DNA from: Sphingosinicella microcystinivorans | GTDB taxonomy: Bacteria; Pseudomonadota; Alphaproteobacteria; Sphingomonadales; Sphingomonadaceae | Reading direction: 5' to 3' | NCBI RefSeq assembly: GCF_027941835.1 | Contig: NZ_CP116005.1 | Location: 3,177,501 to 3,241,500 of the forward strand | Length of the DNA stretch: 64,000 nt | In this document: piece by piece, positions 48,100 through 62,891 of the stretch | How positions within the stretch are numbered: position 1 is the first letter of the stretch | Layout of the letters: each line of letters opens with the position of its first letter | The notes under the pieces: model-generated | Databases searched by the model: none | What the model saw: only the letters and a program-made list of their open reading frames with translations | What the model was told of the DNA's origin: nothing | Made by a program: the position numbers and the translations under genes

Positions 48100-48175
48100 G
48101 GGCCCTTAGCTCAGTCGGTAGAGCAACTGACTTTTAATCAGTAGGTCGCTGGTTCGAATCCAGCAGGGCTCACCA
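48100..48175 (+). tRNA. tRNA-Lys (anticodon TTT), target of the integrated element
   Basis: A 76-nt cloverleaf with encoded CCA. Acceptor GGGCCCT pairs with AGGGCTC; anticodon stem ACTGA/TCAGT encloses CTTTTAA (anticodon TTT). The last 47 nt plus two downstream bases recur at 57986-58034, so the 3' half is contributed by the integrated element and the gene stays functional. Confidence 0.96.
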
Positions 48176-48177
48176 TC
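48129..48177. repeat. Left attachment site (attL), 49-bp direct repeat within tRNA-Lys
   Basis: GACTTTTAATCAGTAGGTCG and the next 29 bases through CACCATC are identical to 57986-58034. The upstream base differs (T at 48128, A at 57985) and so does the downstream base, defining the repeat ends. Covers the tRNA anticodon loop to the CCA end. Confidence 0.93.
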
Positions 48178-48202
48178 TTTTCAAGGACTTAGGCGGGGTG
48201 TC

Positions 48203-48241
48203 GTTAGACGGCGAGGCGACTAGTCTAACATCCCGTCTAAC
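48203..48241. repeat. GTCTAAC repeats near attL (candidate integrase arm sites)
   Basis: GTCTAAC at 48223-48229 and 48235-48241, plus inverted GTTAGAC at 48203-48209. The same 7-mer recurs by the opposite att site, at 57849-57890. Confidence 0.6.
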
Positions 48242-48244
48242 AAA

Positions 48245-48274
48245 AACGCCCGGCGGTGAGGCCGGGCGCTTTGT
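48245..48274 (-). terminator. Terminator downstream of the leftmost element gene
   Basis: CGCCCGGC (48247-48254) and GCCGGGCG (48261-48268) form an 8-bp stem; read on the minus strand it is followed by TTTTTG. It lies 20 bp beyond the stop of the gene at 48290. Confidence 0.75.
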
Positions 48275-48289
48275 CGCGGGTGGTGAGGA

Positions 48290-48703
48290 TCAGGCGGGTT
48301 TGGGGCGATACCACTTCGCGACTTCGATGTCGCTCATGTCCGCCACGATCGCAGCATCGACGTTTTCCGCCGCGATAAGGACGTCCTTGTATGTTGGGAG
48401 GTCAGTCGCTGGCACCCCGAGTTCGACCATGCGCTCGCGAAATATATCCTGGAGTCGAATAAGCAGAAGGCGCTCCAGCACGGACCTTGCGTGCCAGTTC
48501 TTCATGCAAAGCTGCGCGCTGACATTGTCATAGCGGGTACGCCGGTGCTTGATGCGCTGCTTGAGAACAGCCTTGGCGCTTTGCTGCCTGCCCTCACGCT
48601 TCGCGGCGCGCGCCTCCTTCTCCGAGAGCGCTTGCGCGGAGGCCAGACTCTTGATCACATTCTTGGAGTGGGGCGTCGCGGCCCCTATGCTGGAATCAGC
48701 CAT
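48290..48703 (-). CDS. Hypothetical protein (element)
   Basis: 137 residues, highly charged and predicted helical, with a basic middle (AKREGRQQSAKAVLKQRIKH). No family recognised. It is separated from the main leftward operon by the rightward RHH gene and its region, so it probably has its own promoter in 48704-48791. Confidence 0.65.
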   Translation of the reverse strand: MADSSIGAATPHSKNVIKSLASAQALSEKEARAAKREGRQQSAKAVLKQRIKHRRTRYDNVSAQLCMKNWHARSVLERLLLIRLQDIFRERMVELGVPATDLPTYKDVLIAAENVDAAIVADMSDIEVAKWYRPKPA

Positions 48704-48775
48704 TATCGCATCCCTTCATGCGGTTTCGGTTAGAGCCGGGGCGAGGGGCCTAATCCTTGTCTCGGCTCGTCTTTA

Positions 48776-48818
48776 TTGGTATGCCTAAAATATGAAGGCG
48801 TCAATATCGGCACACCAA
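48776..48818. promoter_or_regulatory. Candidate operator of the ribbon-helix-helix gene
   Basis: TTGGTATGCC (48776-48785) and GGCACACCAA (48809-48818) are inverted with one mismatch and straddle the RHH start codon. RHH repressors often bind such sites in their own promoters. Confidence 0.35.
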
Positions 48819-48965
48819 AAATCTAGAGGGCGTCCCGCCACAGGCCGCGACCCTTCAATCAGCGTTCGGCTGCCAGCGGAATTGCTGGCGAAGCTGGACG
48901 TTCAGCGGGGAGACGCGACCCGCTCGGAAGCGATCAGGCGGCTGGTGGAGAAGGGGCTGGCCTAA
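48792..48965 (+). CDS. Ribbon-helix-helix (CopG-like) DNA-binding protein
   Basis: A 57-residue protein starting MKASISAHQKSRGRPATG. Residues about 24-56 are a clear RHH fold: SISVRLPAELLAKLD, then RGDATRSEAIRRLVEKGLA, with the beta strand and the two helices in order. It is the only rightward gene of the element and ends 4 bp into the tail of the convergent gene at 48962. Probably the regulator of the element or a partitioning/antitoxin-type factor; no toxin gene is adjacent. Confidence 0.85.
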   Translation: MKASISAHQKSRGRPATGRDPSISVRLPAELLAKLDVQRGDATRSEAIRRLVEKGLA

Positions 48966-49633
48966 GCCGCCACTCGCTCCCCCTCAACGTCGGCATAGGT
49001 ATGCAGCGCCGCGTACTCGATCCCGGCCGCTGAAACCGTCGTCAGCGTGATCTCGCCCGCCACGGCGCTCACACCGTCTGGCATGAAGCCCCAGCCTTCA
49101 CGTACCGCCCGCTGCGCCTCCACGAGCGGCAGAGCATCGCGCCACGGCACGAACGACGGGTCGCGCAGCCGCACATCGCGCCCATAGACCGCCTGCAGAT
49201 CGACGCCCGGAGTGAGCGCCTGCAGGCAGGGCTTCAGCGCCCACGGCTCCACGTCCTGCAGCAACGTCGGAAATCCCGTGATGAACGACAGGCCCATAGG
49301 GCGCCCCATCCGCCGCGAATACAGGGCGATAAACACCTCACTCGGCAGTTGGTCGGGGTCGAGGCCCTCGCCAGCGTAGAAGCTCCGCACGACGCCCGGC
49401 AGGGCGCGCACGAATACCTCCTGATCGCACGTCTCCCAATCGGGGATTGAATGCAGTAGCGGCGCGAGTACGCCGACGTGGAGGCTGCCGGTCGTCGCGA
49501 TGGCGAGTGACTGCGACCGAACTGCCAGCACCTTTGGTGCGAGCGCCAAAAGCATTCCACTCGGCGTGAACAGGCCCGAATCCGTCATCAGGTACGCGGC
49601 GTCCTTCTGGACGATGAGACTCGCCATCGACAT
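48962..49633 (-). CDS. Unrecognised element protein with Ntn-hydrolase-like N-terminus
   Basis: 223 residues. If the initiator Met is removed, Ser becomes residue 1, and TDS places Asp at 17 and APKV places Lys at 33, the same spacing as the T1-D17-K33 catalytic set in HslV and proteasome beta subunits. The pattern LIVQKDAAYLMTDS...LAIATTGS also follows the beta-strand order of that fold. The family assignment is a structural inference. It is last in the element's operon, 2 bp after the gene at 49636. Confidence 0.7.
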   Translation of the reverse strand: MSMASLIVQKDAAYLMTDSGLFTPSGMLLALAPKVLAVRSQSLAIATTGSLHVGVLAPLLHSIPDWETCDQEVFVRALPGVVRSFYAGEGLDPDQLPSEVFIALYSRRMGRPMGLSFITGFPTLLQDVEPWALKPCLQALTPGVDLQAVYGRDVRLRDPSFVPWRDALPLVEAQRAVREGWGFMPDGVSAVAGEITLTTVSAAGIEYAALHTYADVEGERVAA

Positions 49634-49635
49634 CG

Positions 49636-50733
49636 CTAGCGCCCCCGGCTGGCCATGTGCATGGCCCCCATGGCCCCGGCATTCACCAACGTCGCAATCG
49701 CCGTTTCAGCAGCACGCGCCGGGCGCTCCCTCAGATACTCCCCGACCGACTTCGCGGGGTTGATCGCGTGCCAAGTGTTCATGTCTTGCAGTACCGTCGC
49801 GACCTGCTCGCCAGCCATTTCCTTTGCGACGAACTCGCCAAGGAACTTTGTCATCTTCACCTTGCCGAGCGACTTGGTGAGGAACTCAAGCGGTAGCTTT
49901 TCGGTCGCGCCTTCGATCGTACCTTGCGAGACACCGTAGGCCAGTGCGCGGGACATAGGCAGGCCAGCGTCACGCGCCTCGCCATAGGACGAGCTGCCCG
50001 TCGACGTGCTCATGATCGCAAGGCCAGTTGCCGGACTTCCCGTGGCAACACTCGCGCCGATCGCGCTGACAGTCGCCGGAAGGCTCCGCACGCCCGACAA
50101 GACCGCCCCCTCAATGAAGCTGTCGGATTGCGGCATGGCGGCATCAGCCTGTCGCCGGAAGCCCTCGCGTTCGGCAGCTGCGGCCTTCTTGCTCTCCCGG
50201 TCGTATCGGTAGAGCTTTTGGGCAAGGGCAGGGGACGCCGCTTCGACATAGGCGTCTATGAGCGCCGTGACGGGCGAGAACGCCACTTCGGAAACGTCGC
50301 CGATGACCCGGCGCATTTCGGCGCCCGTGTTCGCGGCATCGTAGTATCCCGCCTTGAGAGCGCCCTTCAGCTTGTTCAGGCCCCGCTCGATCGCGCTCAG
50401 GTTCTCGACGTCATCGTGCGCGATCCTGGCCTTGTCCACGTCACCCAGCAAGGAGGTGACCGCGGGCGATTCCTCCGCCATCCGGTCGAAGTCATAAGCC
50501 TCCGCACGCGCCCGCGCCGTCACGACGTCCGGATAAGACCGTGCCGACGGTATCGGGACGCCGGTCGCACGCGCTGCACGCTGCAGGTCTGCCTCATAGT
50601 CCGGCTTGCTGGAAACGGCGAAGTGCATCGACTCCCGCGCACGTTGAGCCGGAGTAGGGGCTGGCATGAGGTCGCCACGCATGACTGCATCGAGCGCCCC
50701 GTCCAGATCAGCGTCGAGGCTGTCGGCCCTCAT
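49636..50733 (-). CDS. Phage-like hypothetical protein (possible DNA-ejection/virion component)
   Basis: 365 residues. A charged helical N-terminal half is followed by a Gly/Ala/Ser-rich amphipathic region (SGVRSLPATVSAIGASVATG, then GSSSYGEARDAGLPMSRALA) and a helical C-terminus. Similar compositions occur in segments of large podovirus internal virion proteins; that resemblance is from memory of composition, not a proven match. Its ATG overlaps the previous stop (ATGA). Confidence 0.7.
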   Translation of the reverse strand: MRADSLDADLDGALDAVMRGDLMPAPTPAQRARESMHFAVSSKPDYEADLQRAARATGVPIPSARSYPDVVTARARAEAYDFDRMAEESPAVTSLLGDVDKARIAHDDVENLSAIERGLNKLKGALKAGYYDAANTGAEMRRVIGDVSEVAFSPVTALIDAYVEAASPALAQKLYRYDRESKKAAAAEREGFRRQADAAMPQSDSFIEGAVLSGVRSLPATVSAIGASVATGSPATGLAIMSTSTGSSSYGEARDAGLPMSRALAYGVSQGTIEGATEKLPLEFLTKSLGKVKMTKFLGEFVAKEMAGEQVATVLQDMNTWHAINPAKSVGEYLRERPARAAETAIATLVNAGAMGAMHMASRGR

Positions 50734-51338
50734 GCCGCCAGTTTCCGATAGATCGCAATCGCAGCGGGCGCGGAAAGGTTCTCCAGCCAGCCGAGAAAGC
50801 GGCCGTCGTGCGATTCATCGAACCTATCCATGATGCGGTAAAGACGGGCGCGGACGACGCCCATGTTATGCCGGAAGTCCTGCCCCCACTCGCGGGCGAG
50901 GATCGCGCCCTCGGGCGTCCGGGCGAAGCTCCGCGCCGATGCCTCGGGGACGTGCTCGGCCAGCGGCTTCGTGGTCAGCAGCTCAGCAAGCGCCGCGTTC
51001 GTGATCTCGTCGGGCAGGGCCTCGAAGCTGGATTCGAACGCTGCATAGTCCGCCGCTGGCATCGCGACCGCGACGTCCGCCGCCTCGCGCGTCAGCTTCG
51101 TGTAGACCCCATAGCCATCGGGCGTGCCATGCTCCGCGAGATAGTCCGTCATCGAGTGGATATTGATGCGCGGCCCTGCTTCCTCGCCCCCAGCGACAGG
51201 CCCGGCGGCGGCCTCCCGCTGCGTCACAAGCTCGCGGTATCGCGCTTGCTTGCCCTCATCCCGCCAGTAGTCGCGGGTGGTCATCTCGCCCTCAATCGCG
51301 CTGATCTCGGACAGGATGGTCGGAAGGTTGCTCATCAT
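50730..51338 (-). CDS. Hypothetical protein (element operon)
   Basis: 202 residues from ATG 51338 (AAAGG upstream; the next codon is also ATG). Begins MMSNLPTILSEISAIEGEM and is largely helical, with a YDLxxF-like pattern absent. No family recognised. Start overlaps the upstream gene's stop and its stop overlaps the downstream start by 4 bp, so expression is tightly coupled. Confidence 0.72.
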   Translation of the reverse strand: MMSNLPTILSEISAIEGEMTTRDYWRDEGKQARYRELVTQREAAAGPVAGGEEAGPRINIHSMTDYLAEHGTPDGYGVYTKLTREAADVAVAMPAADYAAFESSFEALPDEITNAALAELLTTKPLAEHVPEASARSFARTPEGAILAREWGQDFRHNMGVVRARLYRIMDRFDESHDGRFLGWLENLSAPAAIAIYRKLAA

Positions 51339-51823
51339 GCGACCTTTCGCGGCTGGGTTTTCTGCCATTCCAGAACGGCAGCGGCTTCCGACTGCAGGCC
51401 CTTGATGACCGGATAGCCGTCGGAGGTGCGCACGACGCACCAACCCATGCCAGCGCGCCACTCGCTGCGGTGATTGTCGCCAAGCGGGGTCGAGGCACTG
51501 GAAATCGGCTTGCGGCTGTAGCTCTTGCGGACGCTGATCTCGCAGCCGGCGGTGCGCACGGCCTCGATGCAGACTTCAAGCTCCCAGCTTTCGTCATCCG
51601 CAAGCACATGCACGATGTCATGCCGCTGGAGGTATTTCTGAACGCCGGTCCAGAACTCCATATAGCTCACGTCCTCGCGGGTCGCTTCCGGGGGTGCTTT
51701 CATCCAGAACGTGCGGCGGTAGTGCTGCGCTTCGATCGGCGCGTGCGGCGCGATACGGGGGCGCTTCACGCCAGCTGCGGGGGCGGGGGCCTCGTCGGCC
51801 TTCATTTCAGCAACTGCACCCAT
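51335..51823 (-). CDS. Hypothetical protein (element operon)
   Basis: 162 residues. An Ala/Pro-rich N-terminus leads into a possible alpha/beta domain (DIVHVLADDESWELEVCIEAV, GMGWCVVRTSDGYPVIKG). No family recognised. Stop and start codons overlap both neighbours. Confidence 0.72.
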   Translation of the reverse strand: MGAVAEMKADEAPAPAAGVKRPRIAPHAPIEAQHYRRTFWMKAPPEATREDVSYMEFWTGVQKYLQRHDIVHVLADDESWELEVCIEAVRTAGCEISVRKSYSRKPISSASTPLGDNHRSEWRAGMGWCVVRTSDGYPVIKGLQSEAAAVLEWQKTQPRKVA

Positions 51824-52383
51824 CAGTTCGGTTCCTTTTCAAGAATGGCCGCAAAGGCCGGCTTCACGTACTTTTCAAATGATGTGCCCCACGGACGGGC
51901 CTCGCGCGGCGCGCTGATCCAGTCGAGAATCCCGTACCGGCTGAACTCGATTGCGTTCAGTTCCGACGCCAGCAGCCGCGAATAGGTGTCGCGAATGTCG
52001 CTTACGTCGAGGGCGTGCGGGCGCGTGTTGAATACCAGTGCCTGGCTTCGAAGCGCGTCCGCCGCCGTCTCGATATCTGCCAGCGCTTTGACGAGTGCCC
52101 GGGCGGACTTCTCCGCGCGTTTCACCGCGTCGGCGTATTGCGGCAGGGTCTCCCGGATTTCGGCCCGCGTGGCGTCCTGATGGGCTGCAAGCGCCTCGGC
52201 CTGCGCAATCCGCTCCCGGCGTGCCGTCTCGGCCTCCGCGGCATCTATGGCGGCGATCTCGGCACGCTTGGCGGCGATCTCGGCGGCATCGAAGGGCTGG
52301 CCGTCGAGCAACGCGGCCCCCTGCGCGGCTTCAAGGTCGGCAAGGGCAAGGCTGGCCTGCATACGGCGTTCGGAAAGGTTCAT
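51823..52383 (-). CDS. Hypothetical coiled-coil protein (element operon)
   Basis: 186 residues. Residues about 5-115 are a long Ala/Glu/Arg-rich coiled coil (AEIAAKRAEIAAIDAAEAE), followed by a compact end (YGILDWISAPREARPWG). Coiled-coil proteins next to packaging-type genes can be scaffolds or size-determination factors, as in satellites, but this is only an inference. Overlaps the previous gene by 4 bp. Confidence 0.7.
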   Translation of the reverse strand: MNLSERRMQASLALADLEAAQGAALLDGQPFDAAEIAAKRAEIAAIDAAEAETARRERIAQAEALAAHQDATRAEIRETLPQYADAVKRAEKSARALVKALADIETAADALRSQALVFNTRPHALDVSDIRDTYSRLLASELNAIEFSRYGILDWISAPREARPWGTSFEKYVKPAFAAILEKEPN

Positions 52384-53039
52384 CGGGGCCTCTGGGTAAT
52401 GACTTTGGGGTGAGAGGTGGCGCCGCCGATCGCGCGGTTGCTGGCGCGGTTGATATGCGCGTCGAACTCGCGGCGGGCGACTTCCTCGGCCGTCGGCTCG
52501 TAGACGTAGCTTTGCGGCTCGGGCGGTATGACCTGCGCGGGCTTGGGGTCCGGCGGGGTGGTGGCGTTGTACCAAGTCGTCGGCTGGGGCTCGGGGTTAT
52601 CCATCGCCTGTTGGGCGAGTGCCGTGAGGCCGAAAGACATGCGGCGGCGGGCGTCGATATCGTCCGGGTCGGTCACTATCGGCGGTGGACCTGCCGACGC
52701 CTCTTTGGCTTCCTCGATCATGTTCAGGATGCGGCGGGCCACCTCGATCTTGGAAATGTCCTTCGTCTCGATCGGAGCGCCGTCCTTGCCGCTGATCTCC
52801 GTCGGAGAAATGGGCTTGCCATATGCGCGGTTCAGGTACTCCGTGACGGCGGCAAGCTGCGTGCGCTCGTCCTTGGCCTTCTCCGCCAGCGATTCCAGCA
52901 GGCGCAGCATCTTCGGTCCCTTGCGCAGGGCAATCTCCTTCACCTCGCGCGAAACGCGGTTCCGGGAACCCTTGGGCCGACCGGCTTTTCCCGCTTTGGG
53001 TGGCGAGTTGTTAGATTGATGTTGGATTGTTTGATCCAT
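52380..53039 (-). CDS. Phage-type DNA-binding protein with GRPKGS motif (possible small terminase-like)
   Basis: 219 residues from ATG 53039. A basic N-terminus carries AGRPKGSRNRVSREV (AT-hook-like) followed by a helical region KMLRLLESLAEKAKDERTQL and AVTEYLNRAYGKPISPTE, an arrangement often seen in small proteins ahead of phage terminase genes. The C-terminal half is Pro-rich. No large terminase follows. First gene of the leftward operon; its promoter should be in the repeat region 53040-53387. Confidence 0.72.
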   Translation of the reverse strand: MDQTIQHQSNNSPPKAGKAGRPKGSRNRVSREVKEIALRKGPKMLRLLESLAEKAKDERTQLAAVTEYLNRAYGKPISPTEISGKDGAPIETKDISKIEVARRILNMIEEAKEASAGPPPIVTDPDDIDARRRMSFGLTALAQQAMDNPEPQPTTWYNATTPPDPKPAQVIPPEPQSYVYEPTAEEVARREFDAHINRASNRAIGGATSHPKVITQRPR

Positions 53040-53387
53040 GCTCGCTGAATACCACGGAAATACGTGCATTTGCAATGTAGAAGCGCTGATTACAAATCAG
53101 TAGGCAACACCGGGAAGCGTCGAGAACGGCCGCGAAACGCAGGCCAATATCCGAATATATTTTATCGGGCCCGACCGGAGACGGGTGCGATTTTCCGGCG
53201 AAAGATTCTGCTTGGCGTAAGGTCGGGCGACACATCTCGGGAGAGCGATTTGCTCCACCTTGAAGACCCCAAGTGGAGCGCTGCTCCACCACCACCGCAC
53301 CACTACCCCATGGGGGTGTAGTGGAGCAGTGTTTTGCGCGTGGTTTGCGACACCTTGCTCCGCTCCACCTTTGAAAGTGGAGCAGGA
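53040..53387. other. 348-bp non-coding, lower-GC region of the element (candidate replication origin/promoter)
   Basis: Lies between the primase-helicase stop and the start of the leftward operon. The half proximal to the operon has AT-rich tracts (ATATCCGAATATATTTTATC near 53150), and the other half contains three inverted repeats with GCTCCAC/GTGGAGC arms. No supported open reading frame. Position just 3' of the replication gene resembles origin placement in SaPI-type islands. Confidence 0.55.
53252..53383. repeat. Three GCTCCAC/GTGGAGC inverted repeats
   Basis: Pairs: 53252-53258 with 53273-53279; 53283-53289 with 53321-53327; 53362-53368 with 53377-53383. The 9-mer TGCTCCACC recurs at 53251 and 53282. 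The middle pair encloses another palindrome (CACTACCCC with GGGGTGTAGTG). Iteron-like. Confidence 0.8.
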
Positions 53388-55325
53388 TCATTCTGACCTC
53401 TGCGACGTGCTATCGATCAGCGTACCAACGCGAACGAATTTCCGAACCCTGCGGTTGTCGTCCTTGTCCTCGACCTCCCGCAGCACGTCCGACTTGATCC
53501 AGCCTTTGACGAGTTCCTTCACCCGCTGCTTGTCGGCAGGGCTTTCGAGGTCGGCACCGATCGCATCTGCCACGGCAATGCCGACCCATTCCGCTGATTG
53601 GACATTGGCCCGCCATTGCCCGTCCGCGACCCGTGACTGCACGGTGCGCAGCGTGTAGTGATCGATGCCCTCGAAGGCATCGGGCGGCGTCCACGGCACG
53701 GCTACGGCCACGCTGTCACCGCCTTCAAGGCCACCATTGCCAAGATGCACGCCGACGGCGCGAATCCAGTCCGCCTTGGCGGGCGGGGCGCGGTTCAGCT
53801 TGTCGTTCAGCACGTTGACGTAAAGGCGGCGGTCGGCGTCGTCGGTGATCCCGAAACGCTCGCCTTCCTCTTTCGACATTCGGTTGAATACCAGCACCGT
53901 GCGCGCGGTATTGATGAGGGCTACGGCGCCGCGTCCGGCTTCGGCGGTCACAGCTTGGCCTGCGAGTTTCCGCGTGTGGTGGACAAGAACGATCGCGCAG
54001 CCGCATTCGGTCGCCAGCTTGGCCCAGCGCTTCGAAACCGCATCAATCTTGTTGTTGTCGTTTTCGCTGACCTGATGCGATGAGACGAACGGATCGACGA
54101 TCAGGACGTCTATGTCCCGCCGCTCCAGTTCGGCCGCGAGTGCCTCGTAAACCGGCTCTATGATGCGGAAGCCCGTTGCATCCTCGGTCGCCGTGCACAG
54201 CCCTGCGCCGGTCAGTCCGCTATCGACGAAAAGGCGGTCGCCGCAGTTGTCGCGGCCGATGCCGTAATGGATCGCGCCGGCCATGAACATGCGGTCCAGT
54301 TCGTCTTGCGGATCTTCAAGATTCCAGAACCAAACCCGTTGCGGCCCGTCCCAGACGGTCTTGCCGAGCAGGGCGCGGCCGGTGACAAGCGATAGCGCGG
54401 TCGTCACCATGTACGTGCTCTTGAGGCTGCCACCGCCCGCGATGACGCCCGTAATCGTCCCGCGCAGCAGATCGCGGCCCATAATCCACGGACGCAGGGG
54501 AATGCCCGCCGGTTCAGGCCAGCCGAAGGGTGTGGCGGTGATTTCAATCGCAGCACTTTGCGTTGATTGAGGGCTCGCCGCCTCAGTCAGCCCCCGCAGC
54601 TCCTCGGCAGTGCCCCCAGCCGCCTTCCAGTCCACCACGTCGCCCTTGGGGGGCAGGTCCGGAAGCTCGACAAAGAACGCCTTGCCGCCGTGGCTTTCAA
54701 TCGAGGCCCGGACCTTCTCCGCGAAGCCTCGGCCGGGATCGTCATTGTCGGGGAGGATCGCGACCGTGCGACCGTTGAAATAGGCGCCGAATGCATCCTT
54801 CCACCCGCCGTTAGCGCCGAACGCCACCGCGGTTGCCGTGAAGCCCCACGCGGCCAGCGTGTCGGCCTTGCGCTCACCTTCCACGATGTAGACGACGCTA
54901 TCGAGCGGCGCGGCGAGTAGTTCGGGGAGCCGGTACGGGATGCGCCGGACGTCCTTGATGCCGGCAGTCCATCCGCCTTTGCCGTCGGGGCGTTGGGCGA
55001 TGAATTCCTTGCCGCCGGGCTTCTCAATGCGGACAGTGCGATACAGCACGACGCCGTTTTCGTCGACGTACTCATAGCGCCCGGATTCCCGGCTACGGGG
55101 CGCATCCCAAGACAGCGGCGGCAATATGCCACGATCGCGCAGCTCGTCCTTCACGGCCTGCCAATCGGCCCCGTTGAAGCTGTTTATGAGGATGTCCGCG
55201 CCGTCGTCCGTATCCCGGATCGAAAGACCGCGGTCGTCCTTGCCATGGCCGGGAGACGGCGCTGTGCCGTAGTCCCCATGCCAGTCGCCCCCGAGTGCGA
55301 GCGTTGCTTTGTGCGCGAGGCTCAT
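53388..55325 (-). CDS. TOPRIM/RecA-like primase-helicase (RepA-type replication protein)
   Basis: 645 residues. N-terminal zinc-ribbon-like segment in which the expected Cys positions are changed (SPGHG at 24-28, NSFNGAD at 48-54), a TOPRIM domain with Glu149 in YIVEGERKAD and Asp193/195 in LPDNDDPG, and a RecA-like ATPase: P-loop GGGSLKST with Lys302, Walker B DVLIVDPF ending at Asp411, and an LVHHTRK motif. It should prime and unwind DNA for replication of the element. Followed by the candidate origin. Confidence 0.88.
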   Translation of the reverse strand: MSLAHKATLALGGDWHGDYGTAPSPGHGKDDRGLSIRDTDDGADILINSFNGADWQAVKDELRDRGILPPLSWDAPRSRESGRYEYVDENGVVLYRTVRIEKPGGKEFIAQRPDGKGGWTAGIKDVRRIPYRLPELLAAPLDSVVYIVEGERKADTLAAWGFTATAVAFGANGGWKDAFGAYFNGRTVAILPDNDDPGRGFAEKVRASIESHGGKAFFVELPDLPPKGDVVDWKAAGGTAEELRGLTEAASPQSTQSAAIEITATPFGWPEPAGIPLRPWIMGRDLLRGTITGVIAGGGSLKSTYMVTTALSLVTGRALLGKTVWDGPQRVWFWNLEDPQDELDRMFMAGAIHYGIGRDNCGDRLFVDSGLTGAGLCTATEDATGFRIIEPVYEALAAELERRDIDVLIVDPFVSSHQVSENDNNKIDAVSKRWAKLATECGCAIVLVHHTRKLAGQAVTAEAGRGAVALINTARTVLVFNRMSKEEGERFGITDDADRRLYVNVLNDKLNRAPPAKADWIRAVGVHLGNGGLEGGDSVAVAVPWTPPDAFEGIDHYTLRTVQSRVADGQWRANVQSAEWVGIAVADAIGADLESPADKQRVKELVKGWIKSDVLREVEDKDDNRRVRKFVRVGTLIDSTSQRSE

Positions 55326-55558
55326 CAGTACCCCAAATATTCTGGGCTGGATTGATATAGGCGGCGCCGCTCATCGGTTTCCCGCCATATGATTCCGCGC
55401 ACTTCATCAAGAAGCAGCAGCGTTGCCGCACGATCGAAGTTGGTGGCGATAAGCAGGTAGTGCACGGCCATATCGAGACCGTATCGGCGGGCTTCGCGCT
55501 CTTGATCAGCGCGGACTGCAGCCCGGCGCTGCCTTGCCAGTGCATCGTCATATGTCAC
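55325..55558 (-). CDS. Hypothetical small protein (element)
   Basis: 77 residues, helical and charged, starts MTYDDALARQRRAAVRADQE. No family recognised. Its stop overlaps the primase-helicase start and its start overlaps the preceding stop, so it is translated together with them. Confidence 0.65.
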   Translation of the reverse strand: MTYDDALARQRRAAVRADQEREARRYGLDMAVHYLLIATNFDRAATLLLLDEVRGIIWRETDERRRLYQSSPEYLGY

Positions 55559-55836
55559 GTGCGCACCTCGATCCCGCGCTCGCTCGCTTCGGTCGCGGCG
55601 CGCTCTTGGGCTTCACCCTCGCTCAACCCGCGCGCCAGCGTCACAAGGCGGCCGCCGACGACACCGTGAAGCGAAACGGCGTGACCATCGGATTCACGGG
55701 AAATCTTAAGGTGGAGGCGAGGCCGATTTATAGACAGCGGCGCGGTACTATGGTACGCAAGTTTAGCCCTGCAGCCTCCAATTGTGGGATCGACGGCGCC
55801 CCCTCCCACGGGGCGCCGTTTTCGTTTCTGGGTCAT
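55555..55836 (-). CDS. Hypothetical small protein (element)
   Basis: 93 residues from ATG 55836 (MTQKRKRRPVGGG). The C-terminal half has a possible beta-strand/helix unit (VVGGRLVTLARGLSEGEAQE). No family recognised. Overlaps both the AlpA gene and the 77-residue gene by 4 bp. Confidence 0.6.
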   Translation of the reverse strand: MTQKRKRRPVGGGAVDPTIGGCRAKLAYHSTAPLSINRPRLHLKISRESDGHAVSLHGVVGGRLVTLARGLSEGEAQERAATEASERGIEVRT

Positions 55837-56030
55837 GCCGCCTCCCGCGCTGCCATGCGGTCGGCGAGCCACTGGTCGACCTCGGATTCGATCCAGCCGA
55901 CTGCGCGGCCCTTGCCGTTGGGGTTGATGGTGACGCGGCGGGGGAACAGATTATCGCGTTCAAGTTCTCGGAAGCGTCGTTCACAAAGACCGACCTTCGC
56001 TTCGACTTCAGGCTTTCGAAGTAGTCTCAT
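55833..56030 (-). CDS. AlpA family excisionase/regulator
   Basis: 65 residues with the winged MerR-like helix-turn-helix of AlpA: LLRKPEVEAKVGLCERRFRE, then FPRRVTINPNGKGRAVGWIE and SEVDQWLADR. AlpA proteins activate excision or integrase genes in P4-like satellites and prophages. First gene of the alpA-...-primase operon. Confidence 0.92.
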   Translation of the reverse strand: MRLLRKPEVEAKVGLCERRFRELERDNLFPRRVTINPNGKGRAVGWIESEVDQWLADRMAAREAA

Positions 56031-56103
56031 GGTGTCGTCCTCTCGTTAGGGCGACACTCATCTAGTCCCATTATTTCCTTAGAGGAATCAAAGCCGCTGC
56101 CAC

Positions 56104-56595
56104 TTATTTCGGGAAATTTTCATCCAGTATGGTGGAGCCGGACGGGCGGCGACGCTGTAGGCGATTGAGCCGCGCTCGCTCGATAGCGTCAGCACCACGC
56201 CGGCGCGCGAGCTTACGGAAATAGGTTCGTGGTGAATCGTCCGCGCTGTAATCGTGACATGTCGCCTTAGGCCGGCCGCGCCGGCCCCGAAGCGCTCTAA
56301 AAGCTGAAAGCCATACTCGTGCCGCACAGCCCTCAATTGTAGTGTTAATCAGGCCGTCCGACGTTCTTGGCAAATGGTGAACAAACCAGCGAGCCTCTGC
56401 GCGCGATAGCGTGACCGATACGCGCGCAGGGCGCCCCGTCCGATACGCGCTTTTGAACATGCGTTGGCCTAGTTTTCCGGAAATCTCCCATTCTGGTGAG
56501 CCCTCAGCAAAGCCGCTGAACCCCATGAGCCAAGCCGCAGTCATGCGCGCATCCCATCGGGCAACGTCCAGAATTACGGCGTCCTTTGGCGTCAC
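56104..56595 (-). CDS. Hypothetical protein (element)
   Basis: 163 residues. N-terminus MTPKDAVILDVARWDARMTA, then a Trp/Arg-rich middle (RAEARWFVHHLPRTSDGLIN). A strongly basic C-terminus (RRRGADAIERARLNRLQRRR) suggests nucleic-acid binding. No family recognised. Its start overlaps the integrase stop by 4 bp. Confidence 0.6.
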   Translation of the reverse strand: MTPKDAVILDVARWDARMTAAWLMGFSGFAEGSPEWEISGKLGQRMFKSAYRTGRPARVSVTLSRAEARWFVHHLPRTSDGLINTTIEGCAARVWLSAFRALRGRRGRPKATCHDYSADDSPRTYFRKLARRRGADAIERARLNRLQRRRPSGSTILDENFPK

Positions 56596-57835
56596 GCCGC
56601 ACCCCTCTCCATCGTGACGACGTTGCCCTTCGGCGGGGTGAGGATCAGCGACACCAGCCCGGCGAGCTTCTGCAGGGCCTCGGCTTTCTCGGCCTCGTAC
56701 GGGTGGCGGTCGTAAACGCCCTCAACGCCGGGGATGACGTGGCCAAGCACGCGCTCGGAGATGTCGGGGCGGACGCCTGCGCGGCTCATCAGGGACTTGG
56801 CGGTCCTGCGCAGATCGTGGATGACCCACGGCTCCAGCGCCTTGCCGCCGTTGGCCTTCGCTATCGCCGCATCGAGCGCCACCTTTTCCTTGGAGAAGCC
56901 GTTGAACGCCTTGTCCTTGGAGACGGCGAACACGTAGGGGTTGCCCTTCACTTCCTTGCAAGACTTGAGCACGGCCACGGCGAGCGGGGGCAGGGTGATC
57001 TCGCCTGCGTTCGCCTTCTCGCGGGCTTCGGACGGGATGGTCCACCGGCCTGTCTCCGTATCGACGTCTTCCCAGCGCATCGTGCGGACCTTTTCGCGAC
57101 GCTGTGCTGAAAGCAGGCATGTCTTGATGATCGCGCCGAACACTCCGGCGTCGTCCGCCGCGCTCCACACAAGGCGAAGCTCGTCATCAGACAATATCCG
57201 CTTGCCAGCGCGTTCCGATGGCTTCGTGCGGCGCATTCCGCGAACAATGGGGGAGTTGTAGTTGCTCACCCTAAGCGCATACCACGCCATCATTTTTGAG
57301 AGCGTCGCCAGCAGATGGTCGGCCATCGACGCGCCGCTGTCCCGCTCCACCTCGTCGAGCATATCAGCGATATCTTCGCGCCCAATGCTGACAAACACCC
57401 GCCTTTCCCATCGCGGCCATAGGTGCGTCTTAAACTGCCGCTCAATCTCGTAAGCTGAACGCAGCGGGCGCTCCTTGTTTTTCACGTGCAGGGCAAGGAA
57501 ATCATCGGATACTTGGCGGAACGTTTTGGGCGGTACGATGGGCGTTTCTTCGGGCAAGGGGTGACTTCCCCCGCCTTGATGCGCGGCACTGCTATGCGGG
57601 CACGCTCGCGGGCCTGATCGATCGATATCTCGCCGGGCTTGCCGATCTCCTTCCACACCTGCTTGCCGGACGGCGCCCGCGCGACAACGGTGTAGGTCTT
57701 GGCGCCCCGCGGCGTGACGAGAACGGCAAGCCCAGTCGTCGCCGGATCGAACACGACAAGGCGCTTTTTCGGGTTCGGAATATCCGTTGTCGCGGTTTTC
57801 TCGAACGGCTTGAGCAGGCTTCTCGGTGCGGGCAT
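56592..57835 (-). pseudogene. Tyrosine recombinase/integrase, broken by a single-base frameshift
   Basis: The N-terminal arm-binding domain (MPAPRSLLKPFEKTATTDIP, through KAGEVTP) is in one frame from ATG 57835; the core and catalytic domain (TPIVPPKTFRQVSDDFL onward) continue in another. The shift is at the G-run 57558-57561 (C-run on the coding strand): one missing base would restore a continuous protein. The catalytic Arg (SAQRREKV), HDLRR, LGH and Tyr (GVYDRH) are all present. Either a real inactivating deletion or a homopolymer sequencing error. It is next to attR as expected. Confidence 0.85.
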
Positions 57836-57848
57836 GGGCTAGCCTTCC

Positions 57849-57891
57849 GTCTAACATTCGTCTAAACAGCGGGCTTCCCGTAGTGTTAGAT
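57849..57891. repeat. GTCTAAC repeats near attR (candidate integrase arm sites)
   Basis: GTCTAAC at 57849-57855, GTCTAAA at 57860-57866 and inverted GTTAGAT at 57885-57891. Mirrors the three copies by attL. Confidence 0.55.
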
Positions 57892-57985
57892 TGCTTCCCG
57901 TTGTTTCCACACAAATGCGCGTAAAACAGCCATTCGTCAACCCGATATTTCCTGATATATTCCGCTATATCCCGCTATCGGTTGA

Positions 57986-58034
57986 GACTTTTAATCAGTA
58001 GGTCGCTGGTTCGAATCCAGCAGGGCTCACCATC
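57986..58034. repeat. Right attachment site (attR), copy of the tRNA-Lys 3' end
   Basis: 49 bp identical to 48129-48177. It lacks the tRNA 5' half and so is only a fragment. The 60 bp before it hold repeated ATAT/CCGCTAT motifs. Confidence 0.93.
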
Positions 58035-58204
58035 GCAGAAACCGGCCATTTTCAGCACTTTTCATGCTTTCGGTTCCGGCAAATAGGCTCGGTGCCTCGA
58101 CGGTGCGAAAGCCGACCCTAGAGATAAAATTAACCAGACTGCTTCACTTAGCGATCATCCGGGTTGCATCGGACCGGGCATGGCAGGGGGTGGAGACGGG
58201 TATC

Positions 58205-59230
58205 ATGAAGCTGGAAACGATCGAGCCATGCTACAGCCTCGTCATTCCCATCTACAATGAAGCCGATGTCTTGCCGCTGCTGTTCGAACGGCTGGCCTCG
58301 CTTCTGGAGAAACTGGACCAGAGCGCGGAGATCGTTCTGGTCAACGACGGCAGCCGCGATTCCTCGCTTGCCCTGATGCGGCTGAAGGCGCGGCAGGACC
58401 CGCGCTACCGGATTGTCAATCTTTCACGCAATTTCGGCCATCAGATCGCGATAACGGCCGGCATGGACAATGCCGGCGGGTGCGCCGTGATCATAATGGA
58501 TGCGGATCTTCAGGACCCGCCCGAGCTCGTTCTCGAGATGATCGGCAAATGGAAAGAGGGTTTTTCGGTCGTATCGGCACGGCGCATCGCACGCGAAGGC
58601 GAGGGACGCTTCAAACGCTGGTCGGCCCATATATTCTACAGGGTTCTTCGCACGATGACCTCGGTCGACATCGACGCGGACGTCGGGGATTTCCGGTTGC
58701 TCGACAGAAAGGTCGTGAACGCGTTGATGGGGATGCGCGAGCAGGACCGCTTTGTTCGCGGCATGATCAGCTGGCTCGGTTTCAACCAGACCTGCGTCGA
58801 TTTCGTGCGCGCGGAACGTGCCGCCGGCAGCACCAAGTATCCGTTTCTGAAAATGCTGAAGCTGGCCGTCAACGGTATCCTCGGTTTTTCGGATATTCCG
58901 CTGCGCATGGCCCTTTGGGGCGGCGCGCTGGTATCCCTGCTCGCCATTTCCTATGGCCTGTTCGTGGTGGGCGGCTGGTTCTTCAACGATACGCTGGTTG
59001 CGGGATGGACATCGACGATCGTCGTGCTGTCTTTCCTCGGCGGCATCAATCTGGTGATGACGGGCGTGGTCGGCCTTTATGTCGGCCGCATTCACAACGA
59101 GGTGAAGAGGCGGCCGCTCTATCTCGTCGATGCGGCACGCGAAGATGGCACCCGTGTGGGCGGCGTGCTTCGGAAGCCTGTCGAACGTCGGCGGAGAGTC
59201 CTCGGCGCGGAATCAGAAGTCATTGAATAA
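58205..59230 (+). CDS. Glycosyltransferase family 2 (GtrB/undecaprenyl-phosphate glycosyltransferase type)
   Basis: 341 residues from ATG 58205 (GGAG upstream). GT-A fold with YSLVIPIYNEADVLP, VLVNDGSRDSS, and IIMDADLQDPPE carrying the DxD-type motif. Two C-terminal membrane helices (MALWGGALVSLLAISYGLFV and VVLSFLGGINLVMTGVVGLYV) are as in GtrB and ArnC proteins, which load a sugar onto undecaprenyl phosphate. The convergent GT39 gene overlaps its end and could use its product. Confidence 0.93.
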   Translation: MKLETIEPCYSLVIPIYNEADVLPLLFERLASLLEKLDQSAEIVLVNDGSRDSSLALMRLKARQDPRYRIVNLSRNFGHQIAITAGMDNAGGCAVIIMDADLQDPPELVLEMIGKWKEGFSVVSARRIAREGEGRFKRWSAHIFYRVLRTMTSVDIDADVGDFRLLDRKVVNALMGMREQDRFVRGMISWLGFNQTCVDFVRAERAAGSTKYPFLKMLKLAVNGILGFSDIPLRMALWGGALVSLLAISYGLFVVGGWFFNDTLVAGWTSTIVVLSFLGGINLVMTGVVGLYVGRIHNEVKRRPLYLVDAAREDGTRVGGVLRKPVERRRRVLGAESEVIE

Positions 59231-60898
59231 GGGCGATTCCGGAGCCCGTGCAGACGGCCGGTAGAGCTTCTCTCCCCACCTCAGCGTAAACAGGCCGGTT
59301 GCGCCGGCCTGCTGAAGCCGATGCCATCCCTGGCCAAGCTCCACGATGCTGCCGGGGCGCACGGTCCGGCCGTCGATCAGGACCGGTCCGGGGCCTTCCA
59401 CCGTATAGGTGCCGGCGATCAGGATCTCGAAGGACTGGTCGGGCTGGGAAGCGGAGAGGCCGAGCCGTTTGCCCGCCACGTAGATCGCGCCCCAGTGCCG
59501 AATGTAGTTCGATTTCAGGACGTCGACGTCCTCCTTGAAGAGACCGAAATGGGAAGGGCCCTCCTCGCCCGGTTTCAGGCGATCGAGGTCGAGCATCTCC
59601 CGGTTGGCGACAAGAAAGCGCGGCTGATCGTTTTCCAGTATGGGACGCATGACGGCCTTTCCGGCACGATAATAGTCACGCATCCCCCACATGCTCATGA
59701 ACAGTCCGCGTTTGGGATAGGAGGACACCATCGAACAGCGGTCGATATAGGGCACGGGATGCGGAAACATCCTGTGGATGGCCGCGAGCGTCTGCCTCTG
59801 GCCCGCGTTGCTCTTTCCGGCCGCGCGGAAACTGTGTCCGGCGGCACCGATCGCGAGCGCCGCACACACCGCTATCGGGACAAGCCAGCCCGTCCGCTGT
59901 ACGAGAAGCGGGAAGGCGAAGCCGCACAGAACCGCCACCGGGGCGAGCATGAAGACATAGTAGTAGGCATGGCTTTCCGTATAGGTGAACAGGGTTCCGA
60001 GGATGATGGCGAAGGATGCCAGCATGACTCGGCGGCCCCTGTCTTCGCCGGTCCGCCACGGGCCGCTCAGAGAGGCTATCAAACCCAGACCGGCCATGAG
60101 CCAGAAGACCGGGTTTTCAACCAACGCCTTTACGAATGTGCCCTTTGCCGGGCCGAAATCACGTTCCACCAGCGTTTTCCCGGTGGTGCGATCGAGAAAG
60201 GCAAGACTCGATGCAGGGTCCTGAAGCGTCGACTGGTGCAGGAGATAGAGAAGCCCGAACCCGCACAACGATGCGGCGACGAACATCACGGCGTAGCCCC
60301 AGCCCCGCCGCCGGTTCTCCGCCGACCATATCCTGACGAGGAGGATGATCGCCAGCGTCGGAACATAGAAAATGGACTTGATCGTGATCATTCCCGCCGC
60401 CCCGACGAGCAGGCCACCGGAAAGGGCGCGAAGCGGGGTGGGCGGGCGGCAGGTGGCGATCCACAGCGCCGCCATCATCAGGAATGTCGCGATCGTATCG
60501 GTGCGCAGGCTGTTGCCCTGACGGATGACGAACGAAAAGGACGCATAGCAGAAGACAGCGAACAATGCCGCGTGCGCAGGCATGAAATGCCGGCTGATCA
60601 GATAGATGAACGCGGCCGTGCCGAGCCCGAGGATGTAGATCATCACCCTTGCGGCGACGACCTGATCCACCTCGTTGGCTGAAACTGCGCTGACCCAGCC
60701 GAAACCATGCACGAACATGGTTTGCAGGGCTTCGGTCATGTCTCCCCGCTTGTAGTCATAGACCATGGAGAGATTGAGGAATTCATCCCAGTTCACTTCA
60801 TAGGTGAAAACGAGCCAGAGCCTCACGGCAAGGCAGACGGCAATGAACGCCAGCAGCGCCCTGTTCCACATCCCGGCCCGATCCATTCCTGTCAGCAT
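59213..60898 (-). CDS. ArnT/GT39-like membrane glycosyltransferase
   Basis: About 561 residues from ATG 60898; the frame opens further upstream with a TTG. The first periplasmic loop has EVNWDEFLNL with the DE motif typical of lipid-linked-sugar transferases (ArnT/PMT), followed by at least ten membrane helices and a soluble C-terminal region. It likely transfers a sugar from an undecaprenyl carrier to a surface glycan. Ends inside the GT2 gene by 18 bp on the opposite strand. Confidence 0.85.
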   Translation of the reverse strand: MLTGMDRAGMWNRALLAFIAVCLAVRLWLVFTYEVNWDEFLNLSMVYDYKRGDMTEALQTMFVHGFGWVSAVSANEVDQVVAARVMIYILGLGTAAFIYLISRHFMPAHAALFAVFCYASFSFVIRQGNSLRTDTIATFLMMAALWIATCRPPTPLRALSGGLLVGAAGMITIKSIFYVPTLAIILLVRIWSAENRRRGWGYAVMFVAASLCGFGLLYLLHQSTLQDPASSLAFLDRTTGKTLVERDFGPAKGTFVKALVENPVFWLMAGLGLIASLSGPWRTGEDRGRRVMLASFAIILGTLFTYTESHAYYYVFMLAPVAVLCGFAFPLLVQRTGWLVPIAVCAALAIGAAGHSFRAAGKSNAGQRQTLAAIHRMFPHPVPYIDRCSMVSSYPKRGLFMSMWGMRDYYRAGKAVMRPILENDQPRFLVANREMLDLDRLKPGEEGPSHFGLFKEDVDVLKSNYIRHWGAIYVAGKRLGLSASQPDQSFEILIAGTYTVEGPGPVLIDGRTVRPGSIVELGQGWHRLQQAGATGLFTLRWGEKLYRPSARAPESPLFNDF

Positions 60899-60941
60899 GA
60901 CGGCCGGTTTAAACGCGAGGCATTGAAAGCCAATGAAGAAT

Positions 60942-60989
60942 TTTGTCTCATAGCGAGACAAATGAAGTCTCTATTAACCATTCGAGACT
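60942..60989. promoter_or_regulatory. Inverted GTCTC/GAGAC repeats in the divergent promoter region of the CDP-sugar operon
   Basis: TTTGTCTC (60942-60949) and GAGACAAA (60955-60962) with a 5-nt spacer; AGTCTC (60966-60971) and GAGACT (60984-60989) with a 12-nt spacer. Located between the GT39 and rfbF starts. Confidence 0.5.
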
Positions 60990-61032
60990 ATCCCCGTCGT
61001 GTCGGGAACAGGGCTAGGCACCGGGGGTTCGA

Positions 61033-61809
61033 ATGCAGGTTGTACTGTTGTGCGGCGGGATGGGAACCCGGCTTCGCGAGGAGACCGAGTATCGCCCCAA
61101 GCCCATGGTGCAGATCGGCGCTCGACCGATCCTCTGGCATATCATGCGCCACTACAGCACCTACGGATGCAACCGCTTCCTTCTTTGCACGGGTTACAAG
61201 GGAGGCATGATAAAGGACTATTTCCTCAACTATCGCCAGAACGCGTGCGACGTGGAAATCGACCTCGGGAGCGGGGATGCAAAGCTGCTTGATGCCAAGG
61301 ATGAAGAACTGCCGTGGACCGTGCGCATTCAGGATACCGGCATCGAGACGCTGACGGGAACACGTCTGAAACGGGCGCTGCGCTATATCGACGATGATGT
61401 TTTCCTCGCCACTTACGGCGATGGTGTCGCGAATGTCGAGATCGACGCGCTTGTCGAGCACCATAAACGATCGGGGAAGCTGGCGACGGTTACCGCGGTC
61501 CGGCCGTCCTCGCGCTTCGGCGAGCTCGATATTGTCGGCGACACGGTGAGTTCGTTCATCGAAAAGCCGCAAACCACGGAGGGCTGGATCAACGGCGGCT
61601 TTTTCGTGCTGAACAAAAAAGTCTTCGATGACGTCGGCGACGAGGAAAACATCACGCTGGAACAAGGCGTTCTCGAAAGCCTCGCGGCCCGCCGGGAACT
61701 CAACGTCTACCGGCATACCGGCTTCTGGCAGTGCATGGATACGTACCGCGAACTGTGCCTGCTCGAGGAATACTGGCAAAAGGGCAACGCTCCTTGGAAG
61801 ACGTGGTGA
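61033..61809 (+). CDS. rfbF: Glucose-1-phosphate cytidylyltransferase
   Basis: 258 residues. Nucleotidyltransferase signature VVLLCGGMGTRLREETEYRPKPM, then GYKGGMIKDYFLNY, LATYGDGVANV, and GWINGGFFVLNK. Makes CDP-glucose from CTP and glucose-1-phosphate, the entry to CDP-deoxysugars. Its stop overlaps or abuts the rfbG start. Confidence 0.96.
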   Translation: MQVVLLCGGMGTRLREETEYRPKPMVQIGARPILWHIMRHYSTYGCNRFLLCTGYKGGMIKDYFLNYRQNACDVEIDLGSGDAKLLDAKDEELPWTVRIQDTGIETLTGTRLKRALRYIDDDVFLATYGDGVANVEIDALVEHHKRSGKLATVTAVRPSSRFGELDIVGDTVSSFIEKPQTTEGWINGGFFVLNKKVFDDVGDEENITLEQGVLESLAARRELNVYRHTGFWQCMDTYRELCLLEEYWQKGNAPWKTW

Positions 61810-62891
61810 ACCGGATGGTCAACGCCGCGTTCTGGCAGGGCCGCCAGGCATTCATCACGGGCCATACGGGCTTCATGGGGGGATGGCTTGCGAGCCTGCT
61901 GCTCGGTCTCGGCGCGAAAGTCAGCGGCTATGCGCTCGCCCCTCAGGACGGACCCGGCTTTTTCGAGGCGACCGACCTCGGATCACGGTTGCAGGAATCG
62001 GTGATCGGGGATGTACGCGACGCGAGCGTGCTCGAAGCCGCGCTCATCGCGGCATCGCCAAGCGTCGTCTTCCATCTCGCCGCTCAGCCGCTGGTACGGC
62101 GCGCCTATTCCGAGCCCGAGTTCACCTTCGCCACGAATGTCATGGGAACGGTGAACCTGCTTGAAGCCGTGCGGCGCTGCCCTTCCGTGAAGGCTGTTCT
62201 CGTCGTGACCACCGACAAGGTCTACACGAACATGAACACGACGCGCCCTTACTGCGAAACCGACCGTCTCGGGGGAAGGGAACCCTATAGCGCCAGCAAG
62301 GCTGCGGCCGAGATGGTCGTCGACGCGTATCGCCACAGCTACCTTGTTCCGCCCGGAGTCGGTGAAGGGCGCGTGGGCCTTGCGGCGATCCGCGCGGGGA
62401 ATATCTTCGGCGGCGGCGACTGGGCGGCGGACAGGATCGTGCCCGACGCGGTGCGCAGCTTTCAGGCGGGCCGGCCTCTGGTGCTCAGGAACCCGGCTTC
62501 AACGCGGCCGTGGCAGCACGTTCTCGATCCCCTGCCGGGCTATCTGCACCTTGCGGAGAATCTCTGTGCGGACCCCGGGGCTTTCTCGGAAGGATGGAAT
62601 TTCGGGCCTGTCGTGCACGACTGCCGACCGGTCGGCACGCTCGCCCAGTTGCTTGGCGACGCGTGGGGAGAGGGCGCTGAGGTGCGGGTGGAGCCCAACA
62701 ACCGGATCTTCGAGGAACGGCTGCTCGCACTGGACAGCGCCAAGGCGGGACGCAGGCTCGGCTGGATTCCGCGCTGGAATCTGGAAGCCGCCGTTGCGCG
62801 CACGGTCGAATGGTACAAGACATATTACAGCCGCGGCGACGTCTGGGCGCTGACCCAATCCCAGTGTGCAACGCTCATGAAAGCTGCCTAG
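61806..62891 (+). CDS. rfbG: CDP-glucose 4,6-dehydratase
   Basis: About 361 residues from GTG 61806 (overlaps the rfbF stop, GGAAG upstream); ATG 61815 is possible. Extended SDR: AFITGHTGFMGGWLASLLL binds NAD, FHLAAQPLVRRAY, VVTTDKVYTN, and YSASKAAAEMVV with catalytic Tyr and Lys. Converts CDP-glucose to CDP-4-keto-6-deoxyglucose. Confidence 0.95.
   Translation: MNRMVNAAFWQGRQAFITGHTGFMGGWLASLLLGLGAKVSGYALAPQDGPGFFEATDLGSRLQESVIGDVRDASVLEAALIAASPSVVFHLAAQPLVRRAYSEPEFTFATNVMGTVNLLEAVRRCPSVKAVLVVTTDKVYTNMNTTRPYCETDRLGGREPYSASKAAAEMVVDAYRHSYLVPPGVGEGRVGLAAIRAGNIFGGGDWAADRIVPDAVRSFQAGRPLVLRNPASTRPWQHVLDPLPGYLHLAENLCADPGAFSEGWNFGPVVHDCRPVGTLAQLLGDAWGEGAEVRVEPNNRIFEERLLALDSAKAGRRLGWIPRWNLEAAVARTVEWYKTYYSRGDVWALTQSQCATLMKAA

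Follow-up and report, generated by a model that had tools for sequence, protein, structure and literature searches.

Staphylococcus aureus pathogenicity islands (SaPIs) encode a small terminase subunit (TerS). In type-1 SaPIs, the phage-inducible chromosomal islands (PICIs) that carry CpmA and CpmB, CpmB shares the C-terminal motif (RIIK) of the scaffold and is thought to compete for coat protein (PMC6893505). In the PICI-like element (PLE) and in P4, satellite-encoded scaffolds, TcaP and Sid, change the size of the helper head (PMC10945586). The phage-inducible chromosomal minimalist islands (PICMIs), described from Vibrionaceae, have int, alpA and prim as their mandatory set and no capsid-remodelling genes (PMC10803314), and EcCIMP1, an E. 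coli PICI mobilised by vB_EcoP_Kapi1, carries an integrase, AlpA and a primase/helicase (PMC11773190). Among the papers listed by searches of an open-licence library, no title or abstract opening describes a satellite with ejection or internal virion proteins, nor any such satellite element in sphingomonads or other Alphaproteobacteria. The locus considered here is an island in a 64,000-nucleotide stretch of Sphingosinicella microcystinivorans (NZ_CP116005.1, positions 3,177,501 to 3,241,500; the whole stretch is termed the window, and its genome, G000, is a single 4.53-Mb contig). The island is probably a satellite of podophages and a member of a PICI-like alphaproteobacterial family that is unnamed as far as the searches show; the sequence evidence for its status as an element is strong. 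An initial annotation, made from the letters of the window, had read it as an undescribed phage satellite and had named a lack of sister elements with this gene set as one possible refutation. Such elements do exist, which supports that reading: Sphingosinicella soli has one, as do a second genus of its family (genome G021) and a different alphaproteobacterial family (genome G529), and the circular metagenomic contig IMG/VR 3300005577_000023 is another.

The element comprises 9,906 bp between exact 49-bp direct repeats, found where the initial annotation had put them, with the left copy formed by the 3′ portion of a tRNA-Lys(TTT) gene. All listed element genes run leftward, the RHH regulator excepted. 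Pfam and PHROG matches bear out the predicted integrase, AlpA, TOPRIM/helicase and RHH genes. The six-gene overlapping operon also stands; its order is TerS-p187-p162-p204-LPD22-223 aa, with gene ends that overlap or abut. TerS, p162, the p204 end motif and the LPD22 protein all have phage relatives. The TerS-like gene and a frameshift that splits the integrase had been overlooked. The main features are the following:

48100-48175, plus strand: tRNA-Lys(TTT), integration site (ARAGORN, Rfam)
48129-48177, plus strand: att repeat, left copy, 49 bp (repeat comparison)
48792-48965, plus strand: RHH (CopG-type) regulator (Pfam RHH_1 E 2e-5, phrog_4738 E 4e-10; G021 counterpart 86% identical)
48962-49633, minus strand: 223-aa protein, Ntn-hydrolase-like by eye only (S. 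soli counterpart 82% identical)
49636-50733, minus strand: variable slot, here a 365-aa LPD22 protein (LPD22 E 3e-20, phrog_9880 E 1e-28)
50730-51344, minus strand: p204, phrog_3742 end motif at the N-terminus plus another body (hhalign, hidden Markov model matches)
51335-51823, minus strand: p162, phrog_26742 family (E 2e-9)
51823-52386, minus strand: p187, coiled by eye (in all five elements, in G529 via profile)
52380-53048, minus strand: TerS-like protein, N-terminal domain phrog_15261 / phrog_2538 (PHROG matches)
53049-53387, no strand: iteron region, 6 x GTGGAGC, candidate origin (word count)
53388-55325, minus strand: Toprim + AAA_25 (RepA-like) primase-helicase, 645 aa (Toprim_3 E 0.001, AAA_25 E 7e-32)
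55833-56030, minus strand: AlpA regulator/excisionase (Phage_AlpA E 1e-12, phrog_66 E 7e-8)
56592-57545, minus strand: integrase, catalytic part (S. soli 88% identical)
57482-57835, minus strand: integrase, N-terminal part, different frame (disrupted in the present assembly; relatives have intact copies)
57986-58034, plus strand: att repeat, right copy, 49 bp, identical to the left (repeat comparison)

The element resembles the PICIs, notably the type-1 SaPIs, in its size, its tyrosine integrase with att repeat, its own replication gene, a TerS-like gene without a large subunit (TerL) and a small scaffold-end protein, and AlpA-type control is shared with Gram-negative PICIs. Unlike SaPIs, it would use podophage helpers, has the scaffold end at the N-terminus of p204 and reserves a slot for relatives of virion core or tailspike proteins; we know of no SaPI counterpart for p187 or p162. 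PICIs are defined as having no virion structural genes, whereas here the slot encodes relatives of internal virion proteins. Integrase, AlpA and primase-helicase recall EcCIMP1 (the “EcoP” in the name of its helper marks a podophage; no podovirus wording was found in the text of PMC11773190) and form the PICMI set, but unlike PICMIs the element has TerS-like and scaffold-end proteins, that is, candidate remodelling genes. TcaP and Sid, to which p204 is likened as a putative satellite-encoded scaffold, are external scaffolds, while p204 shares the end of an internal scaffold-position protein. No TerL, portal, capsid or tail family was matched at E 0.01 among 14 scanned element ORFs, as first annotated. 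The capsid, portal and TerL set of capsid-forming PICIs was not found in the element, and TerL, portal, major capsid and tail tube genes, which would mark a podoprophage, are absent. General ORF scans named neither Sid/Psu/Delta nor an alpha-type primase (the P4 marker profile set was not run).

The TerS-p187-p162-p204 core is present in all five elements. Its identities to the window are 79–84% in S. soli, 34–59% in G021 and 29–42% in the circular contig, and G529 is matched by profile at E 1e-12 to 1e-6. Genome G001 was taken as S. soli DSM 17328 (element matches on NZ_JACHNZ010000057.1), in which the element lies at the same tRNA, spread over two contigs with the LPD22 gene at the contig break; 9 of 15 query pieces are 73–95% identical on one contig and one more 69%, and the 223-aa protein lies on the second. 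The G021 element (10.7 kb) lies at tRNA-Lys(CTT) between 49-bp repeats that are 98% identical and conserves TerS, p187, p162, p204, AlpA, int and RHH. In G529 the element, bounded by a 47-bp repeat at tRNA-Lys(TTT), measures 19 kb and is broken by a stretch of about 9 kb, in which one ORF looks transposase-like by eye. The metagenomic contig is 12,429 bases long and its termini repeat 120 bp exactly, which makes it a circle of 12,309 bp; its gene order matches, and beside int it has a single tRNA 3′ end, which we read as tRNA-Phe-like. The left flank and the tRNA are present in genomes G004 and G002, where no element protein was matched; in the near-empty site of G004, sequence that lies to the right of the S. 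soli element resumes within about 150 bases. Near-empty and occupied sites together with the circular contig suggest movement.

Relatives are rare in the genome samples, which overlap. Of 148 related genomes, 5 have TerS (three being the elements) and 3 have LPD22. The p204 profile matches 3 genomes among 397 of the family and, among 269 of the phylum, that of the window alone. Of 396 genomes of the order, p162 likewise matches only that of the window, and phrog_26742 is present in 3 among 385 of the class, prophage L031 accounting for one. A scan of genome contigs returned S. soli alone. Viral-contig scans with TerS, three-row p162 and p204 alignments and LPD22 gave no match, and four other such scans returned L007, the circular contig and L037.

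The N-terminal domain of the TerS-like protein matches phrog_15261 (E 3e-8; G021 1e-17) and the terminase small subunit family phrog_2538 (E 6e-4; G021 6e-6). In L007 and L010, which are prophage or viral contigs, a phrog_15261 gene stands directly before TerL (E 2e-57, 6e-98) and portal. Another TerS family, phrog_51, is found in L031 and in P2, one of two podo-type prophages of G021 (the element TerS profile against P2 gives E 0.09). Among deposited phages TerS has three weak matches of at most 43% coverage, annotated as hypothetical or unannotated.

Searches with p204 return the C-terminal ends of phage proteins, from an IMG/VR phage (53% identity over residues 7–44), a G021 prophage and genome G514, and three phage proteins so matched belong to phrog_3742 (E 7e-20, 1e-42, 1e-26). 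The motif, residues ~8–43 at the p204 N-terminus, pairs with the C-terminus of these scaffold-position proteins: against three near scaffolds the hhalign probability is 97.1 (E 5.8e-11, 36 columns), and against nine it is 87.9 (E 3e-6, 35 columns). A motif search of 6687 ORFs gave E 5e-10 and 1e-7 among the 22 matches listed, and shuffled ORFs gave none at E ≤10. Residues 68–166 of p204 match phrog_3742 weakly (E 0.006). The family is called a scaffold because its gene lies between portal or head-tail adaptor and major capsid genes, as in G514 and P2, and because the only deposited-phage protein related to it (E 3e-4) carries the annotation capsid assembly protein. The evidence for p204 as a scaffold-end protein is good, and by analogy with CpmB it may be a scaffold mimic that competes for coat protein; this would be the second use of a scaffold's own end by a satellite. 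The p204-like protein of G529 (L032:10196-11113) seemingly has two tandem scaffold-end motifs, weakly matched (i-E 0.5, 6), the first with YWRGP, as in the phage protein of L037.

Genes of phrog_26742, the p162 family, lie between capsid and tail genes in G514 and P2 (E 3e-22, 7e-38). Neither p162 nor the 223-aa protein has a tblastn match in deposited phages. For p187 no relative was found outside the elements in the searched sets, and its weak matches include a tail pilot-protein family (E 0.29). The 223-aa protein has no Pfam, PHROG or PDB match, and p204, p162 and LPD22 likewise have no PDB relatives (best E 0.2 for the four).

The slot after p204 differs by lineage, and each version encodes another relative of virion proteins. 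In the window and S. soli it is related to the N-terminal ~366 aa of Bbp10, a 2052-aa protein of the BPP-1 structural cassette (36% identity over 90%). In G021, behind a small ORF, it is a Bbp11-type SLT transglycosylase (phrog_10475 E 1e-77 over nearly the full length). The circle has a phrog_418 internal virion protein of Bbp12/gp14 type there (E 3e-24), and the ORF in front of it matches no known family. The G529 slot encodes a tailspike/pectate-lyase-like protein (families to E 1e-16). In Bordetella phage BPP-1 (Rauchvirus) the genes for Bbp10, 11 and 12 are adjacent, and Bbp12 is annotated as an internal virion protein; slot relatives are found likewise in the G021 prophages, P1 (Bbp10- and Bbp11-type genes) and P2 (in order TerS, TerL, head-tail adaptor, phrog_3742, capsid, phrog_26742, tail, phrog_418). 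Unlike the element, these phages carry TerL, portal or adaptor, capsid and tail genes.

The G021 slot protein and a P2 core-type protein agree in every one of residues 1–30 and diverge thereafter. The P2 gene adjoins the phrog_418 gene of that prophage, and its product matches the N-terminal part of phrog_10475, is of phrog_992 ‘head protein’ type from there on and lacks the transglycosylase part. In this segment 80 of 90 bases agree, the ten differences being nine synonymous changes and one in the start codon, with 0 nonsynonymous in codons 2–30. The flanks are at background (19/60 identical upstream, 48/90 downstream), the P1 and BPP-1 counterparts begin with other residues, and no other DNA match of the G021 element to P1 or P2 was found at E <0.01. 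The segment is probably a helper-derived sorting segment, a fingerprint of the helper; shared ancestry plus constraint is the alternative.

The initial annotation had suggested that the operon may interfere with or redirect helper packaging, and the TerS-like, scaffold-end and virion-slot proteins lend this gene-level support. On helper induction the element would excise and replicate, and its TerS would pass element DNA to the TerL and portal of the helper. Competition of p204 with the helper scaffold for coat protein would alter or block helper heads, in the manner of CpmB in SaPIs. The slot protein would enter the virion core, in G021 via the 30-residue segment, and there aid delivery of the satellite or substitute for the helper's version. 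We tentatively propose that the satellite may remodel head assembly, DNA choice and the interior of the helper virion, the slot supplying a core/ejection (or tailspike) protein addressed by a helper-shared N-terminal segment, so that particles would deliver DNA with a satellite-made entry protein. For such customisation of the virion core the evidence is moderate. If true, this would be the first case known to us of satellites with interchangeable virion-core proteins, it would add alphaproteobacterial podophages to the helpers exploited by capsid-redirecting satellites, and the shared segment would hint at a way of sorting core proteins into podophage virions.

Several observations weigh against a podophage satellite of this kind. 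Searches for phrog_3742, phrog_3437 and LPD22 found no helper in the window genome: it has no phrog_3742 gene and no LPD22 gene beyond the element's own, and a phrog_3437 capsid gene is absent from G000, G001 and G004. The motif stands at opposite ends of p204 and the phrog_3742 proteins, whose bodies did not align. The latter family is labelled ‘unknown function’, its scaffold role resting on gene place and one annotated relative. TerS homology is moderate (phrog_2538 E 6e-4), the fingerprint comes from one genome, G021, and the circular contig could represent excised rather than packaged DNA. Pairing of the G529 element with the podo-type prophages of its host is unsupported, because there is neither a DNA match nor a helper fingerprint and the scaffold-end match is weak (E 0.0036). 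A P2-type capsid gene is found in two of four element-bearing genomes, a sample too small for comparison with the phrog_3742 background of 52/240. The integrase of the window copy is frameshifted, so this copy is possibly stranded, or it may await an incoming inducing phage. The sole TerL_ATPase (PF03354) match in the window genome is G000:C1:2233125-2233649, which could be of the prophage or the gene-transfer-agent type.

It is unlikely that a podophage-dependent satellite would use this operon mainly as an anti-phage weapon, p204 and a short core protein poisoning helper heads and ejection; the host population would then survive, and the element would seldom be transferred. Helper-inhibiting satellites are known (PMC6893505, PMC10945586), p204 bears only the end of a scaffold-position protein, and the LPD22 protein covers only the first ~366 of 2052 Bbp10 residues; the G021 slot protein, however, is a full-length family member and not a fragment, and the sites and the circle speak for movement. 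Moreover, nine gene pieces compared between the window and S. soli, TerS and integrase pieces among them, have dN/dS of 0.10–0.26 by a simple counting method, which indicates that they are under purifying selection.

The same selection and the circle bear on a second reading, for which the probability is very low: deletion of a podoprophage, in which integration, replication, TerS and part of an internal-virion gene were left after head and tail loss. The phage relatives of the operon and the broken integrase would fit such decay. Yet independent decay would not repeat TerS-p187-p162-p204, and one order recurs, without TerL, portal or capsid, in five elements with differing att sites, replication genes and slot genes; p204, too, is a scaffold end joined to another body, not a truncated scaffold. 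The remnant was rejected as largely refuted, in line with the initial annotation. Also very improbable is an integrative element that took up its phage genes by chance and moves by conjugation or generalised transduction: LPD domains occur also in conjugative and plasmid proteins and the window genome shows no helper, but the order of phage-morphogenesis relatives is conserved family-wide, and a conjugative element was rejected since the scanned element ORFs include no relaxase or conjugation family and p162 has no match in 72,556 plasmid records.

S. soli and G021 have the integrase, split in the window element, as one uninterrupted ORF (414 and 405 aa, respectively). The repeat-rich candidate origin of the initial annotation has six GTGGAGC/GCTCCAC words in 53049-53387 against 0.13 expected from window density, and S. 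soli likewise has six; the corresponding gaps of the G021 element and the circle lack them. S. soli matches only residues 253–645 of the primase, not the Toprim part, and in G021 an O-like initiator takes the place of the primase-helicase. AlpA was not found in the G529 element. The RHH gene with its upstream DNA (window 48691-48949 against L009:3361-3618 of the G021 element) is 76.5% identical over 260 columns and the protein 86%, which is unusual as core proteins of these two elements are only 34–59% identical; the conserved region is likely a shared operator or control circuit.

The remaining features of the window element are small ORFs:

48290-48703, minus strand: 137-aa cargo protein (best family matches E 0.06 or worse; none in PADLOC)
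55325-55558, minus strand: 77-aa ORF (no family matched)
55555-55872, minus strand: 105-aa ORF (S. soli 69% identical over a 48-column alignment)
56104-56595, minus strand: 163-aa ORF (no function assigned from family scans)

Ten proteins of the cargo or the slot, drawn from four elements, matched no PADLOC defence family. The S. soli element (L017:6905-9996) has extra cargo, several small ORFs between the tRNA and the 223-aa gene, two of which were tested against PADLOC with no match. A PEP-CTERM protein is encoded in the cargo region of the G021 element (L009:4302-4946). To the right of the window element, the part of the flank that was compared (as far as 60500 or 60961) matches nothing in the stretches taken from G002, G004 and S. 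soli, and 58035-64000 is possibly another island or a rearrangement at the tRNA. In the circular element, a ClpP-like SDH-type serine protease (L030:1428-2369, Pfam E 3e-23) adjoins the internal virion protein gene and could be cargo or a protease of the head-maturation type.

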